From an uncultured Pelagibacteraceae bacterium (GTDB taxonomy: Bacteria; Pseudomonadota; Alphaproteobacteria; Pelagibacterales; Pelagibacteraceae), in assembly GCA_902566945.1 (NCBI GenBank), contig CACFKZ010000001.1, forward strand, positions 1 to 64,000: DNA of 64,000 nt, in the 5' to 3' direction. Made by a program: the position numbers and the translations under genes. The notes below the pieces were generated by a model that was not told the origin of the DNA, did no database searches, and saw only the letters and a list, made by a program, of their open reading frames with translations. Shown one piece after another: positions 6,099-14,779 of this stretch (the stretch's first letter is position 1; each line of letters begins with the position of its first letter).

Positions 6099-6431
6099 AT
6101 GAAAGTTATTGACAATTTATTTGTCTACGGAACTCTTCAAAAGGGAAAACAACACGAAAATTTTTTAAATAATTTAAAAGGTAGCTGGAAAAAAGGCTAC
6201 GTTTTTGGAGAACTTATAAATATAAGTTCAGGCCCAGATTATGGCTATCCGGCTTTAAAATTAGATGCCAAAGGCTCAAAAATTTATGGAATGATATTTC
6301 ATTCAAAAGATTTGGAAGGTCATATAAAAAAAATTGATAAGTTCGAAGGTGATAGTTACAAAAGAATTATTTCAAAAATAATTTTAGAGGACGGTTCCCA
6401 AATAGAAGCATATTTATACGAATTAAAATGA
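6099..6431 (+). CDS. Gamma-glutamylcyclotransferase-like (GGCT/AIG2) protein
   Basis: The 110-residue protein opens with the substrate-binding loop LFVYGTLQKGK (residues 7-17) and has the acidic motif KIDKFEGDSYKR near residue 85. The glutamate there is at the place of the family's catalytic acid, followed by the conserved Y and R. This is the short bacterial YtfP-like form of the family, which releases 5-oxoproline from gamma-glutamyl compounds in characterised members. Its substrate here is unproven. The gene is the last core-like gene before the tmRNA-linked accessory cassettes; its stop lies 9 bp before the first core repeat. Confidence 0.8.
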   Translation: MKVIDNLFVYGTLQKGKQHENFLNNLKGSWKKGYVFGELINISSGPDYGYPALKLDAKGSKIYGMIFHSKDLEGHIKKIDKFEGDSYKRIISKIILEDGSQIEAYLYELK

Positions 6432-6440
6432 AGTTTGATA

Positions 6441-6457
6441 GGGGCGTTCTGCTGCCC
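6441..6457 (-). repeat. tmRNA-end core repeat, copy A
   Basis: Read on the minus strand this is GGGCAGCAGAACGCCCC. It shares the 11-base core CAGAACGCCCC with the tmRNA 3' region at 9072 and with copy B at 7049, all in the same orientation. It can form a small GGGC/GCCC hairpin. No minus-strand gene ends here, so a simple terminator role is unlikely. I interpret it as the outer (left) attachment-like site of a tmRNA-integrated cassette. Confidence 0.65.
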
Positions 6458-6501
6458 GGCAATAGACAAGAAATTAGCATATTTGCTCACTTATTAAAAC
6501 T

Positions 6502-6577
6502 ACTTCGTTGTAAACTTCGTTGTCAGAACGACCTATTTTCTTTTTAGTTGGTTTTTTGATCTTACACTTCATTGTAA
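6502..6577 (+). repeat. 12-bp iterons, left end of cassette 1
   Basis: ACTTCGTTGTAA at 6502-6513 is followed head-to-tail by ACTTCGTTGT at 6514-6523, and a third copy ACTTCATTGTAA lies at 6566-6577. The pair begins 61 bp from the core repeat at 6441, and the third copy ends about 20 bp before the next ATG. The same layout recurs in cassette 2 (see 7110-7178). These could be integrase arm-type sites or operators. Confidence 0.6.
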
Positions 6578-6595
6578 ATTTGATATTCTTAAATT

Positions 6596-7039
6596 ATGAA
6601 AAAATTCTTTTTTTCAGTAATATTAGTTTTTCTTTTATTTGGTTGTGCAAAACATTCCAGTAGTTATTTGAAGCAAATAGATAATACAACTAAAACAATT
6701 AATGCATCTACGTCTAACAAACATTTATTCAAAGATATTAAATCTATATTTAGAAATAATGGTTGGAAAGTTATGGTGCTAGATGACAAGCAGTTTGAGA
6801 CAATTGGTTCAATAGGATTGGATACAAATCTTGAGACAAAAATAAAAAATTTAGGAAAATACAGACTTGTAATTGAGCAACGTCAAATAGATCTATGTTT
6901 AGATTTTGATCCAGTTATTAGATACGACATTAGCATTGTCGAAAATGAGACTGGCGAAGAAGTCTTTTTATCTGAGGGACAAGATTGTTCAAAAAAAATT
7001 GCTGAAAAATTAGAAGTAGATCTAAAAGATTTTTGGTAA
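6596..7039 (+). CDS. Putative lipoprotein, accessory
   Basis: The 147-residue product has a short basic N-terminus, a hydrophobic core and a lipobox LLFGC (cysteine near residue 17), so it should be a lipid-anchored envelope protein. The mature part contains charged, mixed alpha/beta-like sequence with WKVMVLDD and YRLVIEQRQIDLC; I recognise no domain. It is the only gene of cassette 1, bounded by core repeats at 6441 and 7049. The position in a tmRNA-linked variable spot suggests it is a dispensable, horizontally moved gene. Function unknown. Confidence 0.7.
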   Translation: MKKFFFSVILVFLLFGCAKHSSSYLKQIDNTTKTINASTSNKHLFKDIKSIFRNNGWKVMVLDDKQFETIGSIGLDTNLETKIKNLGKYRLVIEQRQIDLCLDFDPVIRYDISIVENETGEEVFLSEGQDCSKKIAEKLEVDLKDFW

Positions 7040-7048
7040 TCAGGAAAA

Positions 7049-7068
7049 GGGGGCGTTCTGTTTCCCCC
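7049..7068 (-). repeat. tmRNA-end core repeat, copy B
   Basis: On the minus strand this reads GGGGGAAACAGAACGCCCCC followed by TTTTCCT. It contains the CAGAACGCCCC core and shares the next bases (TTT-CCT) with the tmRNA end at 9072. It forms a strong 5-bp G/C hairpin with a T run on the minus strand, yet no minus-strand gene ends here. It sits exactly between the lipoprotein cassette and the nuclease cassette, as expected for a junction between two tandem insertions. Confidence 0.65.
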
Positions 7069-7109
7069 TATAATTTAAATACTAACAGAAAATAAAGACT
7101 TTTTGAAAC

Positions 7110-7178
7110 ACTTCAATGTATTCTTCAATGTAAGTTTAACGAATTAAGCACAAACTCTGTTTCTCGACTTCATTGAAA
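7110..7178 (+). repeat. 12-bp iterons, left end of cassette 2
   Basis: ACTTCAATGTAT at 7110-7121 is followed by TCTTCAATGTAA at 7122-7133, with a third related copy ACTTCATTGAAA at 7167-7178. The tandem pair starts 60 bp from core copy B, against 61 bp in cassette 1. The third copy ends about 20 bp before the next ATG, again as in cassette 1. Confidence 0.6.
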
Positions 7179-7198
7179 AACAAGGATAAATTTAAACA

Positions 7199-7753
7199 AT
7201 GAAAAAATCAATTAATTGGTCATATTTTCCTAAAACAGATCCTATCCCACAGGAATTAGAAAAGGTAATAGGTGTTTTTGAAAAAAACTTTAAAGAAATT
7301 GATACTATCAAAGATGAAGAAACAATTTCCAAAGGCATTAAAGATAAAGATAAGAGATTACAAAGTGATGATATTTTAAAAATTGTAGAAAAAGATTTTC
7401 AAGATTTAAATTTTAAAATAGAAACAGATAAAAAAAAATCAAACAAAATAAGAGTCCCAGTTCTTTTTGGTCATCAAGGTAAATCGGCACAGGCATTTGA
7501 GGTAGATGGATGGCATGAGGAAAATAAAATTGTATTAGAAATTGAGAGAGGTCGCGCATACGCTAATAATCAATTCTTAAAAGATATATTTGAAGTTAGT
7601 GTAATGGTTAATGTAGATTACCTGGTATTGGCAGTTAGTAATTTGTACAAAGGATCAAATGATTTTGAAAAAATATGTATATGGTTGGAAACAATATATG
7701 TAACAAATCGTATTAAATTATCGCTAAAAGGAATTCTTCTAGTAGGTTATTAG
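7199..7753 (+). CDS. PD-(D/E)XK-like nuclease, similar to BglII/BstYI-type restriction enzymes
   Basis: The 184-residue protein has a C-terminal half with AFEVDGWHEENKIVLEIERG (about residues 100-119). That is a D-x(n)-E-x-E arrangement typical of the BglII/BstYI branch of the PD-(D/E)XK nuclease fold. The next part, NNQFLKDIFEVSVMVNVDYL, fits the following helix and strand. The N-terminal 80 residues are charged and not recognised. No methyltransferase is nearby, so a classical restriction-modification pair is not seen. It is the first of three closely spaced genes (gap 4 bp to the next). Nuclease assignment is moderate and rests on the motif only. Confidence 0.55.
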   Translation: MKKSINWSYFPKTDPIPQELEKVIGVFEKNFKEIDTIKDEETISKGIKDKDKRLQSDDILKIVEKDFQDLNFKIETDKKKSNKIRVPVLFGHQGKSAQAFEVDGWHEENKIVLEIERGRAYANNQFLKDIFEVSVMVNVDYLVLAVSNLYKGSNDFEKICIWLETIYVTNRIKLSLKGILLVGY

Positions 7754-7757
7754 ATTA

Positions 7758-8267
7758 ATGGCACAGATACACGAAAAATTAGTAGAGGAATGGTTTAGGA
7801 GAAAAGGATATTTTACAATTCGTGGAGCAAAAGCAAAAGGTTCTGGAAATAATGAAATAGATATATTGGCGCTAAGATCAAATGAAGATGGCACTCAAAA
7901 TTATCGACACATAGAATGTCAAATTTCTTTTAGACCAATTGGTTATATATCTACCAACCCAAGAACCAGATTAAAAAGGACAGCATTAAAAAGATCAAAG
8001 ATTGAGATTGACGAGGATGCTCCTGTTTGGGTAAAACAAAAATATTTTTCACCAAAAGTTGAAAATATAAGAAATTCATTTGTAAATCATAAAGTTAATT
8101 GGATGTACACATTCGTTCATCACAAAGTAAAAGATGAATACGAACTGGAGGTAATTAAAAATCAAGGTATCGAATTAATTTCATTCCAACTAATTATGGA
8201 TCAACTTGATCCAAAAGCAGACAGGACTAGCGACGCTAGAGATGAAGTCGAATTACTTAAAAAATAA
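7758..8267 (+). CDS. Second PD-(D/E)XK-like nuclease domain protein
   Basis: The 169-residue protein starts with a helix HEKLVEEWFRRKGYFT, then GSGNNEIDILALR (catalytic D near residue 35) and YRHIECQIS (E-x-Q near residue 54). This is the layout of Mrr/NERD-like PD-(D/E)XK nucleases, with Q in place of the usual lysine. A missing lysine is tolerated in some families and marks inactive members in others, so activity is uncertain. It follows the first nuclease-like gene by 4 bp, which suggests the two products act together, perhaps against foreign DNA. Confidence 0.55.
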   Translation: MAQIHEKLVEEWFRRKGYFTIRGAKAKGSGNNEIDILALRSNEDGTQNYRHIECQISFRPIGYISTNPRTRLKRTALKRSKIEIDEDAPVWVKQKYFSPKVENIRNSFVNHKVNWMYTFVHHKVKDEYELEVIKNQGIELISFQLIMDQLDPKADRTSDARDEVELLKK

Positions 8268-8282
8268 CTTAGTCTTTGAATA

Positions 8283-8987
8283 ATGTTAATAGATAACACA
8301 TTTGACTTTAGGAAAGATGTGAGACCTAACGCAGATCCAGACAAAGATAGTAAAATATTACTATCTTATCATAAATACCTATGGTCAAAAAATTTACCAA
8401 ATGGTCTAAAGTTTGAATTATCTGATAGAGAACCAAATAAATATTTATTTCATAAGTCTTCTTTAGGAGAGTTTTCATTGTCTAGTGATGGGATTGGAGT
8501 TTCATTTATTAATAGAAAAGATATGAAAGAAATTACTGATCAAATAAGTGAAAAACGAAAAGAGGAGATACTAGAAATACTTTACTCGATAGGAGGTTTT
8601 ATAATCTTTCCCTCAAACAAAATAATAATAGATGGAAAGAAAAAACTAACTATAAATGGAGAAAGAGGTTGGAATAAAAGAATTGTCGATAGATTTGATT
8701 TAACACTCGAATGTATTAGAAGATATTATTTAAATATTGAAAGTCCCTTAAAAAAAACTTTAGAAAGATATAAAGATTTTTTTTTATTATTCGAAAATTT
8801 TCGTAATTATGTTGAATTTTTCATACTTCAGGATTTAGTAGATACAAACTTTACAGAAATAAAATTTTTTCTTGATTTTGATGATAAATTCCCACAAAAC
8901 CCTCTGCCGAAAAATTTGAGAGAATATAATCAATATATTGACAATAATTTAGATTTTGTAATTAAGAGAAGAAATAGAATGAAATAG
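8283..8987 (+). CDS. DUF6994-like protein of unknown function
   Basis: The 234-residue protein begins with DNTFDFRKDVRPNADPDKDS and continues YHKYLWSKNLPNG and FHKSSLGEFSLSSDGI, which I recall as the pattern of the DUF6994 family. The C-terminal half is helical and charged (RRYYLNIESPLKKTLERYKD). No catalytic motif is evident and there is no signal peptide. It lies 15 bp after the second nuclease-like gene in cassette 2 and is the last gene before the tmRNA end. The family name is from memory and should be treated as tentative; function is unknown. Confidence 0.55.
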   Translation: MLIDNTFDFRKDVRPNADPDKDSKILLSYHKYLWSKNLPNGLKFELSDREPNKYLFHKSSLGEFSLSSDGIGVSFINRKDMKEITDQISEKRKEEILEILYSIGGFIIFPSNKIIIDGKKKLTINGERGWNKRIVDRFDLTLECIRRYYLNIESPLKKTLERYKDFFLLFENFRNYVEFFILQDLVDTNFTEIKFFLDFDDKFPQNPLPKNLREYNQYIDNNLDFVIKRRNRMK

Positions 8988-9004
8988 TTTAAAATTGTTT
9001 TCTG

Positions 9005-9030
9005 ACTTCATTGTAACTTCAATGTAAATT
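9005..9030 (+). repeat. 12-bp iteron pair, right end of cassette 2
   Basis: ACTTCATTGTA at 9005-9015 is followed directly by ACTTCAATGTAA at 9016-9027. These match the iterons at 6502 and 7110. Here the pair lies 42 bp before the core repeat of the tmRNA end and no plus-strand gene follows closely, which favours a recombination-site role over a promoter role. Confidence 0.55.
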
Positions 9031-9071
9031 CCTTTTGGAAAATGACTGAGGACACTGGATACCTTAGGAAA

Positions 9072-9096
9072 GGGGCGTTCTGTTGCCAGGTGCCCC
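9072..9096 (-). terminator. tmRNA 3'-region hairpin and core repeat, copy C
   Basis: On the minus strand GGGGC ... GCCCC encloses CTG-GCAA-CAG, a GNRA-type tetraloop hairpin, followed by TTTCC. It ends the tmRNA coding piece and probably terminates transcription. The same segment holds the CAGAACGCCCC core shared with the copies at 6441 and 7049. Confidence 0.65.
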
Positions 9097-9336
9097 AAAC
9101 CCCGTAACTTAATTAACTAGGTTAATTAAGCTGCAAGTGCAAATTTTTGATTTGCATTTATAAATTAGCCCGTTACGTCGGAACCATCTCGTACGAAAGA
9201 ACAGCCTTTAGACACCCGTCGATCCTAATTCACCCCCGTAAGTTGTAAATGGTGGAGGTGGTGGGTACTGCCCCCACGTCCGTGATGTTTATTACGAAAT
9301 TCGTTTATCGTCATAGTTGGAAAACCAACGCTATTA
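9072..9336 (-). ncRNA. ssrA: Transfer-messenger RNA, circularly permuted two-piece form
   Basis: Read on the minus strand, the acceptor piece comes first. It has a GTTGG/CCAAC hairpin (9329-9316), then a T-arm GTGGG-GGCAGTA-CCCAC, then CACCTCC and ACCA ending at 9250. A 12-base spacer (9249-9238) follows, then the coding piece starting GGGGGTG at 9237. GGGGGTG pairs with CACCTCC to give a 7-bp acceptor stem with one G-U. The tag frame at 9155-9126 reads ANQKFALAA then TAA, ending in the ALAA proteolysis signal. A perfect 10-bp hairpin (9130-9121 with 9117-9108) follows the stop. The permuted order is known for alphaproteobacteria. tmRNA with SmpB rescues stalled ribosomes. The outer limits, especially 9336, are approximate. 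Confidence 0.92.
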
Positions 9337-9377
9337 ATATAAAACTCTTTTAAAGAGATTCAATAATAAATTCTAAA

Positions 9378-12299: not shown

Positions 12300-13174
12300 T
12301 GAAATCCGCTAAATTTATAGTCCCAGTAATAATATTAATTGGAGTAGTAATTTTTCAATCTTTATTCATTGTTCAAGAAATTAGCCAAGCAATTGTGCTT
12401 CAATTTGGTGATCCCAAGAAAATTGTTACTAAAGCGGGACTAAATTTCAAATTACCCTTTATACAAAATGTAGTGTACTTAGATAAAAGAATCTTAAACT
12501 TAGATAACGATCCTGAGGAAGTAATTGCAGCCGATCAAAAAAGATTAATCGTTGATGCGTTTGCAAGATTTAAAATCGTAGATCCTTTAAAATTTTATAT
12601 TTCGGTTGGAAATGAAAGAGTTGCTAGATCTAGGTTGTCCACAATCATAAATTCTAGAATAAGAGGTGTATTAGGTACTCAGGAATTAGCTACTTTATTG
12701 TCTACAGACAGAGCAAGACAAATGCAAATAATTCAATCTCAAGTTAATGCAGAAGCTAAAAATTTTGGAATAAATATTGTTGATGTTAGAATTAAAAGAG
12801 CTGACCTTCCTCCAGCAAATAGTGAAGCCATCTATAAAAGGATGCAAACAGAAAGAGAGAGAGAAGCAAAAGAATTCAGAGCACAAGGTGCTGAGATTGC
12901 ACAGAAAATAAGATCTACAGCAGATAAAGATGTAACTGTAATTTTAGCTCAAGCAAATAAAAAGTCTGAGATAATGAAAGGTGAGGGAGATGGTCAAAGA
13001 AACAAAATTTTTGCGGACGCTTTTGGAAGAGACCCACAATTTTTTGCTTTTTACAGAGCTATGCAAGCGTATGAAAAAGCTTTAATAGGCGGGGAAACTT
13101 CACTAGTTTTATCGCCAGACAGTGATTTCTTTAAGTTTTTTGGTAAGTCAATTAAACCAAACATTAAAAGATAA
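12299..13174 (+). CDS. hflC: FtsH protease modulator HflC
   Basis: The 291-residue partner of HflK has an N-terminal span (about residues 5-24), the band-7 start AIVLQFGDPKKIVTKAGLNF, and the family stretch VDVRIKRADLPPANSEAIYKR and RMQTEREREAKEFRAQGAE. It sits 1 bp into the end of hflK and 15 bp before a DUF2065 gene, in a run hflK-hflC-DUF2065-degP-miaA seen in many alphaproteobacteria with small changes. Confidence 0.95.
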   Translation: MKSAKFIVPVIILIGVVIFQSLFIVQEISQAIVLQFGDPKKIVTKAGLNFKLPFIQNVVYLDKRILNLDNDPEEVIAADQKRLIVDAFARFKIVDPLKFYISVGNERVARSRLSTIINSRIRGVLGTQELATLLSTDRARQMQIIQSQVNAEAKNFGINIVDVRIKRADLPPANSEAIYKRMQTEREREAKEFRAQGAEIAQKIRSTADKDVTVILAQANKKSEIMKGEGDGQRNKIFADAFGRDPQFFAFYRAMQAYEKALIGGETSLVLSPDSDFFKFFGKSIKPNIKR

Positions 13175-13189
13175 ATTAAATTAAACATC

Positions 13190-13375
13190 GTGAATGAGTT
13201 TATTATCGCAATTGGCTTGATTTTTTTTGTGGAAGGGCTGTTTTTAGCCATTTTCCCGTCAAGAATTAAAAGCATATTAGAATTAATTAAAAATACTCCT
13301 GAAAATAAATTAAGATTTCTAGGAATTGTTTTTTTGATTATCGGTTTTTTAATAATTTGGTATATAAAAAGTTAG
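13190..13375 (+). CDS. DUF2065 small inner-membrane protein (YjeT-like)
   Basis: The 61-residue protein starts at GTG and consists of two membrane spans (about residues 3-21 and 43-58) around a short polar loop with FPSRIKSILELIKNTPENK. The span order and the phrase GLFLAIFPSR are typical of DUF2065. It lies between hflC and degP, its usual place, and ends exactly one base before the degP ATG. Its role is not established; by context it may serve membrane-protein quality control. Confidence 0.85.
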   Translation: MNEFIIAIGLIFFVEGLFLAIFPSRIKSILELIKNTPENKLRFLGIVFLIIGFLIIWYIKS

Positions 13376-14779
13376 ATGAAATTAGTAAGTAAAATATTAT
13401 TTTTTTTAATCATAATTAATTTTTCTTTTGTACATTCAAAACCTGTTCCAGATTCTTTTGCAGATTTAGCAGATAAATTGATGCCTTCTGTAGTAAATAT
13501 TTCTACTACTCAGACAGTAAGAACAACAACAAATCAATTTCCTTTTCAATTTCCTCCTGGTTCACCATTTGGTGAAATGTTCAAAGACTTTGAAAGGCCT
13601 ACTGAAAGAAAAGCCTCATCTTTAGGATCAGGATTTATAATTGATAACATGGGAACAGTTGTTACAAATAACCATGTAATTTCCGGAGCTGATGACATTT
13701 TAGTAAGAGTTGGAGATAAAGAATATAAAGCAAAAGTGATAGGCGCTGACCCATATATGGATATTGCAGTTTTAAAAATGGAAACTAAAGATCAATTCAA
13801 ACCAGTAAGCTTTGGAGACTCTGACAAAGCTAGAGTTGGAGATTGGGCTGTTGCAATTGGTAATCCTTTTGGTTTAGGAGGAACTGTAACTGCAGGAATT
13901 ATTTCAGCTAGAAACAGAGATATTAATCTCACAAGATATGATGACTTTATTCAAACTGATGCTTCAATTAATCAAGGTAACTCTGGTGGTCCTTTGTTTA
14001 ATCTTAAGGGGGAAGTAATTGGTATTAACACAGCAATTATAGCACCAGGTCAGTCAGGCTCTATAGGAATTGGATTTGCAATTCCGGCTAATGCAGCTTC
14101 AAATGTGATCGATCAATTAATTAAATTTGGAGAAACAAAAAGAGGATGGTTAGGAGTAAGAATTCAAGAAGTAACAAAAGAAATAGCTGATGTAGAAAAA
14201 TTAAAAAAACCACAAGGTGCTTTAGTTGCAAGTGTTGGAGAAAATAGTCCAGCAGATAAAGCAGGAATAAAAGCAGGCGATATAATTTTAAATTTTGATG
14301 GAAAAAAAATTGATACGATGAGAACTCTTCCTAAAGTAGTTGCATCTACAAAGGTAGGTAAAAGCGTAGAACTAAAAATTTGGAGAAATAAAAAATTAAT
14401 TTCAAAAAGATTGACTCTTGGAAGACTTGAGTCGTCAGAAGAATTTAAAGAAAAGAAGACAAAAGTGGTAAATAAAGTTGAGGACATCCAAAAACTAAAA
14501 ATAGCAGTTAGAGATGTTACTAATGAAGATATTGCTAAGAGAAATTTAAATAAAAAAACGTCAGGGGTTGTTGTAACTGAAATCTTCAGTAGAAGCCCAT
14601 TAAATAATCTTGTCAATATAAACGATATTATAATCGAAGTTCAGAAAACTCCCGTGAAGTCATCATCAGATTTAAAGAGGTTGGTTGATAATATCTTTAA
14701 AAAAGGGGAAAAGACGTTACTGTTAACAGTAATCAATCAAAATAATCAAAGACGTTACCTTGGCGTTAAAATAAATTAG
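13376..14779 (+). CDS. degP: Periplasmic serine protease/chaperone DegP (HtrA)
   Basis: A signal peptide (about residues 1-21, ending VHS) leads into a trypsin-like domain with catalytic H100 (TNNHVISG), D129 (DPYMDIAVLK) and S203 (QGNSGGPLF). Two PDZ domains follow (about 265-355 and 370-460), giving the usual DegP/DegQ plan at 467 residues. It degrades or refolds damaged envelope proteins. Translation starts directly after the DUF2065 stop. Which of DegP, DegQ or MucD it equals in function cannot be told from sequence alone. Confidence 0.95.
   Translation: MKLVSKILFFLIIINFSFVHSKPVPDSFADLADKLMPSVVNISTTQTVRTTTNQFPFQFPPGSPFGEMFKDFERPTERKASSLGSGFIIDNMGTVVTNNHVISGADDILVRVGDKEYKAKVIGADPYMDIAVLKMETKDQFKPVSFGDSDKARVGDWAVAIGNPFGLGGTVTAGIISARNRDINLTRYDDFIQTDASINQGNSGGPLFNLKGEVIGINTAIIAPGQSGSIGIGFAIPANAASNVIDQLIKFGETKRGWLGVRIQEVTKEIADVEKLKKPQGALVASVGENSPADKAGIKAGDIILNFDGKKIDTMRTLPKVVASTKVGKSVELKIWRNKKLISKRLTLGRLESSEEFKEKKTKVVNKVEDIQKLKIAVRDVTNEDIAKRNLNKKTSGVVVTEIFSRSPLNNLVNINDIIIEVQKTPVKSSSDLKRLVDNIFKKGEKTLLLTVINQNNQRRYLGVKIN

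Follow-up and report, generated by a model that had tools for sequence, protein, structure and literature searches.

The window analysed here, a 64,000-nucleotide stretch of contig 1 of an 864-kb, 77%-complete SAR11 genome, carries a permuted alphaproteobacterial tmRNA gene, ssrA, followed by two short att-bounded elements that contain neither integrase nor transfer genes. The attachment site is the 3′ end of ssrA (its coding piece), and the elements are delimited by three copies of a core repeat, the minimal cores, GGGGCGTTCTG(T/C), beginning at 6441, 7050 and 9072. In relatives, an element that moved has its breakpoint at the same 12 bp as the ssrA-proximal core, and the outer core lies 9 bp past the end of the neighbouring gene (6099–6431). 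ARAGORN places the permuted tmRNA at 9035–9345. From ssrA outwards, the features are:

9069–9367, minus strand: ssrA, permuted alphaproteobacterial tmRNA gene (Rfam RF01849, 216 bits)
9072–9083, minus strand: ssrA-proximal core, ACAGAACGCCCC on the ssrA strand, GGGGCGTTCTGT on the opposite strand
7062–9071: element 1 (about 2.0 kb), with three cargo genes and repeats at each end; lacks an integrase and is non-autonomous
9005–9027, plus strand: element 1 proximal arm, copies 9005–9016 and 9016–9027
8283–8987, plus strand: element 1 cargo, 234 aa, DUF6994 (Pfam, 3e-81)
7758–8267, plus strand: element 1 cargo, 169 aa, very weak Mrr-type nuclease match
7199–7753, plus strand: element 1 cargo, 184 aa, weak ORF6N match below cut-off
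7167–7178, plus strand: element 1 distal arm, third copy
7110–7133, plus strand: element 1 distal arm pair, 7110–7121 and 7122–7133, 69–70 bp from the core
7050–7061, minus strand: middle core, the distal end of element 1 and proximal end of element 2
6453–7049: element 2 (about 0.6 kb), with a single lipoprotein-like gene and repeats confined to the distal end; non-autonomous
6596–7039, plus strand: element 2 cargo, 147-aa lipoprotein-like protein, start MKKFFFSVILVFLLFGC
6566–6577, plus strand: element 2 distal arm, third copy
6502–6525, plus strand: element 2 distal arm pair, 6502–6513 and 6514–6525
6441–6452, minus strand: outer core, one mismatch

No confident Pfam family could be assigned to the 147-aa protein of element 2, and PADLOC recognised no known defence gene in the window's cargo. 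Neither element encodes an integrase, and no member of the integrase family of the related complete element L111, described below, was detected in the window genome at its present 77% completeness.

The first-pass annotation had singled out clusters of a 12-mer, ACTTC(A/G)(A/T)TGTAA, at the cassette ends. Eight copies are indeed present at the places it gave, all on the plus strand; those at 6502, 6566, 9005 and 9016 fit the proposed consensus exactly, while those at 6514, 7110, 7122 and 7167 each depart from it by one base. The left-end pairs begin 61 bp (6502) and 60 bp (7110) from the minimal cores, just as had been claimed, and the third copies, said to precede the first ATG of each cassette by about 20 bp, have 18 and 20 bp between their last base and the ATGs at 6596 and 7199, respectively. 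The right-end pair does lie on the inner side of the core at 9072, but its copies are spaced by 11 bp with a one-base overlap, so that it ends at 9027 and not at 9030. Repeats at both ends occur in element 1; the 609-bp cassette has them at one end only.

Within the region 6437–9090 these eight copies compare with a mean of 0.10 and a maximum of 3 in 2,000 dinucleotide shuffles. The single word, in contrast, is not enriched, either in the whole window (31 matches with up to two mismatches versus 37.8 expected) or in the whole genome (27 matches with up to one mismatch versus 49 for the reversed pattern), and the signal is therefore the clustering. The best-conserved unit of the repeat is the 9-mer CAA(C/T)GAAGT, read on the ssrA strand.

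Repeat spacing and repeat dialects at ssrA in related genomes

We compared the window with 169 genomes of its genus, all of them incomplete assemblies, of which 131 gave an ssrA match above the family cut-off, and read 81 loci, window included, up to 14 kb downstream of ssrA. Tandem cores, two to nine in number, were found in 61 of these 81 loci. The units of the arrays span about 0.1–7.6 kb, and the far syntenic side is marked by a PRA-PH gene that lies only 95–96 bp from the core in two loci (L034 and L049).

A search of the 169 genomes with the tandem-word pattern CTTCRWTGN{2,4}CTTCRWTG returned 23 matches, as against one for the reversed pattern run as a control. Nineteen lie within ssrA arrays, all antisense to ssrA, three lie at the 3′ end of hisG, and the remaining one (G147) is probably due to chance. 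Alignment on the core puts the start of the distal pair 69–70 bp ahead of it in 13 of 14 cases; the one exception has 67 bp. Pairs located after the core start at 59 and at 70–71 bp from it, the 59-bp distance being that of the proximal pairs of the window genome (G000), G095 and G141; proximal arms like that of element 1 also occur in G095, G141 and L117. The arm-site idea thus passes both refuting checks named at first pass: the tandem word is not dispersed over intergenic regions, and its distance to the core is kept in other genomes. At hisG, the sites in G037, G049 and G166 (loci L159–L161) have the window's word and its arm layout; a DUF6994-like gene resembling that of element 1 is carried by the unit of G049 and is listed as cargo of locus L159. 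No core repeat was found at the hisG sites, so this location is only partly understood.

Many other units carry different repeat words at the equivalent positions. We sorted these into classes by simple patterns, class A including GGACTCA and GATCACA and class B including CTCGTAAT, GGCGGAA and GTCGTAAT, and counted the 7-mers common to the two ends of a unit in comparison with permuted partners (20,000 permutations). The two ends covary in class B (3.29 shared 7-mers versus 1.20 when permuted; 0/20,000), in class A (2.16 versus 1.44; 68/20,000) and in units outside the assigned classes (1.82 versus 0.63; 0/20,000). Class C alone gave no significant covariation (1185/20,000), because most of its units lack the proximal arm. 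The simplest reading of this behaviour is that each unit is recognised by a single protein that reads both of its ends. For classes A and B, the commoner ones, no integrase was found in these incomplete assemblies.

The arrays also hold several recurrent units. One cassette, always exactly 409 bp long, is present in nine or more genomes (L016, L021, L041, L055, L056, L059, L081, L083, L087 and others); it has a distal end common to 14 loci yet lacks the arm words, and pair identities are about 85–97%. Units of about 125–270 bp (for example L014 877–1013, L026 2561–2696 and L075 877–1001), typically placed at the far end of the array, hold a reading frame of about 20 hydrophobic amino acids, in several cases behind a conserved AAAGGAGTCGAAATGAGCGG leader. 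Otherwise unrelated cassette proteins (L010, L011, L023, L047, L057, L083 and others) begin with a near-identical signal peptide, MKKLLAIVVLGLL..., as if cargo had been swapped behind a shared leader. One class A-ended array (L158, on contig 1 of G109) starts from a tRNA-Thr gene, at its 3′ end, with junction GAGGGCACCAGACAACAGAACGTCCC; here elements of this type occupy a different RNA gene.

Complete elements, their tyrosine integrase and recent movement

Rare complete elements of 7.6–10.4 kb at ssrA carry a divergent tyrosine integrase. Three of them, L044, L110 and L111, encode related integrases, and in each a word of its own marks the two ends. L044 is a 7.6-kb unit with a 409-aa integrase gene just within the distal arm and the word ACTATGTACC; L110 and L111, both at ssrA in a sister genus, have CTACGAAGT and CAACGAAGT, respectively, the latter being the window's own word. 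The distal end of L111 moreover aligns to window positions 6441–6559 with 72% identity. Integrase remnants lie at ssrA in three further loci of the sister genus (L112, L116 and L117), and a fragment, likewise at ssrA, is found in a third genus (L133). In another family, L115 has an intact integrase gene beside ssrA with the word CTTCGCACTT near a diverged core, and in L114 a relative of the integrase lies by groEL with TTCCTCAC words on either side. All integrase relatives in named records belong to Pelagibacteraceae. Two other relatives (G537 and G529) were set aside: they lie away from ssrA, have a stop codon inside the gene and lack flanking words.

The 409-aa protein of L044 is not recognised by Pfam or PHROGs, and its relatives give weak Phage_integrase matches. 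R238, K273, R350 and Y382 (L111 numbering) are invariant in the alignment, and the catalytic set is present in L044, L110, L111 and L113–L115; the positions of the usual catalytic histidines are mostly occupied by Tyr and Asn. A structural model (pLDDT 79) predicts a strand-strand-strand-helix fold at residues 19–72, and the best Foldseek matches include the Tn1549 integrase (5e-8) and full-length lambda integrase (8e-7). The N-terminal domain is accordingly predicted to have the shape of an arm-binding domain, a statement that rests on the model and on no binding data. The neighbour of the distal core in L044, L110 and L111 is the tyrosine integrase, while their serine recombinases (225–246 aa) are internal. 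As far as comparison of sequences can establish it, this integrase shows linkage with ssrA as well as with words in the same arrangement.

Besides the integrase, the gene content of complete elements at ssrA includes a small serine recombinase and a 128-aa protein that is conserved. L110 has a T4-type clamp loader gene (13322–13951) and L111 a sliding clamp gene (13137–13877). Such T4-like genes hint at a phage partner and prove nothing; it is possible that the complete elements are phage satellites. In a search for viral carriers, the class A circle junction, the integrase and the 128-aa protein had no match in IMG/VR or phage records; IMG/VR matches to the core alone were mostly phage tmRNA genes, and those to CAACGAAGTTNTCAACGAAGT, which fell in coding sequence, were apparently chance. 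Marine phage contigs L090–L098 bear tmRNA genes of their own, the 3′ end of which contains the full core.

Several units have moved recently. A complete 10.37-kb element is 99.86% identical between L171 and L172, as compared with 83.2% for the right flank and 95.2% for the left. Among 22 pairs of units that are full-length in two genomes, none of them with an integrase, 12 exceed the identity of their flanks by at least 5 points. The clearest case, an integrase-less unit of 1,278 bp, is 99.5% identical in L042 and L071, with the flank at 86.5%, and stands beside ssrA in one genome and 7 kb away in the other. It has distal CAATGAAGT words (the window's word) and no proximal arm, and both of its breakpoints fall exactly at the core. 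A one-armed unit can therefore move, or has moved; that homologous recombination, acting between cores, placed it there is less probable. Anatomy, spacing, end-to-end covariation and recent movement of relatives can all be regarded as established, on the evidence of the nucleotide sequences compared.

A proposed integrase acting in trans and the alternatives

Taken together, these results lead us to interpret the 12-mers as arm-type sites of an ssrA-specific tyrosine integrase, borne by non-autonomous and probably trans-mobilised cassettes. We assign this interpretation a probability of about 0.85. Counting against it are the absence of an integrase from the window's elements and, at 77% completeness, from its genome, the lack of one for classes A and B, the non-significant covariation within class C, the replaced catalytic histidines and the lack of binding or recombination data. 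Arm-type sites had been one of the two possibilities offered by the first-pass annotation, and the decisive evidence in their favour, which that annotation lacked, is that complete elements occur at this very site, have arms built alike and encode a tyrosine integrase of lambda type. The N-terminal domain of the integrase, with its three predicted strands and helix, should bind the arm words, an inference from the fold, while the 12-bp core at the tmRNA 3′ end, ACAGAACGCCCC, would be the substrate of the catalytic part. By a recombination that is likewise inferred, a circular form of the element, comprising the distal arm, the core and optionally the proximal arm, would recombine with the ssrA core, leaving ssrA with its own 3′ end, the element downstream and a copy of the core at the far end; further insertions, each at the ssrA core, would build up a tandem array. 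Since the window's two elements lack an integrase, we infer that they were probably moved in trans by one that reads CAA(C/T)GAAGT, as in L111; the route by which the DNA passes between cells is an inference as well.

The source of such an integrase does not appear to be the resident tyrosine recombinase. A PF00589 match is present in 120 of the 169 genomes, mostly as one protein of about 309–325 aa, and was never near the ssrA arrays in the genomes searched, for which reason we rejected it as a helper. In the window genome, the PF00589 recombinase (L009; contig 10:22277–22816) adjoins a glycosyltransferase-like gene, a placement that recalls the HVR2 integrase (PMC2217521).

The words could instead be bound by another recombination protein, such as an excisionase, a directionality factor or an architectural protein, rather than by the integrase N-terminus. 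Directionality factors often bind tandem direct repeats near a core, and the connection between words and integrase rests on a fold model only. However, the integrase does have a predicted N-terminal domain of arm-binding shape, the words stand at both ends as arm sites do, and a small DNA-binding protein shared by L044, L110 and L111 was not identified, although not all of their proteins were searched. We consider this explanation improbable.

Still less likely, in our view, is the other possibility raised at first pass, that the words are operators of the cargo gene. The distal copies do stand just ahead of a cargo start codon, with the third copy 18–20 bp ahead of each of the window's ATGs, and of the 102 ORFs that reach 100 aa in armed elements, 96 point away from the distal arm. 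Yet the same word lies on the 3′ side of the cargo (9005–9027), the complete elements have the same arms at the end of the integrase gene and not at any gene start, the spacing to the core is fixed in many genomes despite differing cargo, and the word families covary between ends. The words on the 3′ side, the covariation and the integrase elements without an adjacent gene start weaken the operator idea as originally stated; an effect on transcription is not excluded. A role as iterons for replicating a circular form of the element is very improbable, for although 11–12 bp tandem repeats resemble plasmid iterons and complete elements have T4-like clamp or clamp-loader genes, the copies are divided between two ends at fixed core distances, the window's cassettes yielded no recognisable Rep protein, and the words are retained in a one-gene element of about 0.6 kb.

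Beyond the arm-site interpretation itself, we tentatively propose, with somewhat less than even confidence, an integron-like cassette economy in SAR11 that rests on integration of the lambda type, in which integrase-less and often one-armed cassettes at the tmRNA 3′ end would be moved in trans by rare, non-resident integrases, the ‘dialect’ of the arm word setting which integrase moves which cassette. SAR11 are the most abundant bacteria of the ocean, and their streamlined genomes are considered to hold little mobile DNA. Present at about three quarters of the ssrA loci read (61/81), a site of tandem cassettes would rank among the main routes by which the group exchanges genes. The dialects, for their part, provide a natural set of variants with which to test the reading of arm sites by lambda-type integrases that have one core in common. 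We found no account of this ssrA site in SAR11 in the open-access papers searched; subscription journals were mostly not covered.

Comparison with known systems

Like the lambda and Tn916–Tn1549 integrases, the SAR11 enzymes combine a tyrosine recombinase fold with an N-terminal domain, the latter known from prediction alone, and the core lies at the end of a conserved gene with tandem arm words on the element side. Unlike those systems, the SAR11 integrases have weak or no Pfam matches, the elements use various words at one common core, and many are one-armed and without integrase.

Tandem islands bounded by copies of the ssrA 3′ end are known from Dehalococcoides, where some lack an integrase and have been discussed as cis-mobilizable elements, and where CcrB-like serine recombinases are used (PMC3146451). 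In SAR11, by contrast, the recombinase is a tyrosine enzyme, the tmRNA is permuted and units range down to about 0.1–0.6 kb; in L044, L110 and L111 no CcrB-like serine integrase occurs at the att site, and we rejected an island of the Dehalococcoides type on that ground. Att-bounded, integrase-less units in tandem also recall CIMEs and accretion. The window's two elements have the structure of a CIME, and for movement of such units by a related element's recombinase the near-identical integrase-less units of different genomes are indirect evidence only. Known CIMEs are mostly decayed conjugative elements, whereas single-gene units in SAR11 recur near-identical across genomes and array positions.

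Tycheposons of Prochlorococcus and Methylophilaceae, elements of 4–200 kb at tRNA genes (PMC10872708), are also found in streamlined marine bacteria and also couple cargo to a tyrosine recombinase next to a gene of tRNA type. The SAR11 units differ in being mostly about 0.1–8 kb, at tmRNA and usually without integrase, and the window's elements, at 0.6 and 2.0 kb, at tmRNA and without a recombinase, are not tycheposons. Nor, judged by recombinase and boundary rather than by attC hairpins, is the locus an integron array: there is no PF00589 match near the ssrA arrays, and the boundary is the tmRNA core. The SAR11 site consists of this core plus arm words, and its integrase is not IntI and is usually not encoded alongside the array. 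The likeness to integron cassettes is one of analogy, both being arrays of small exchangeable gene units at one site.
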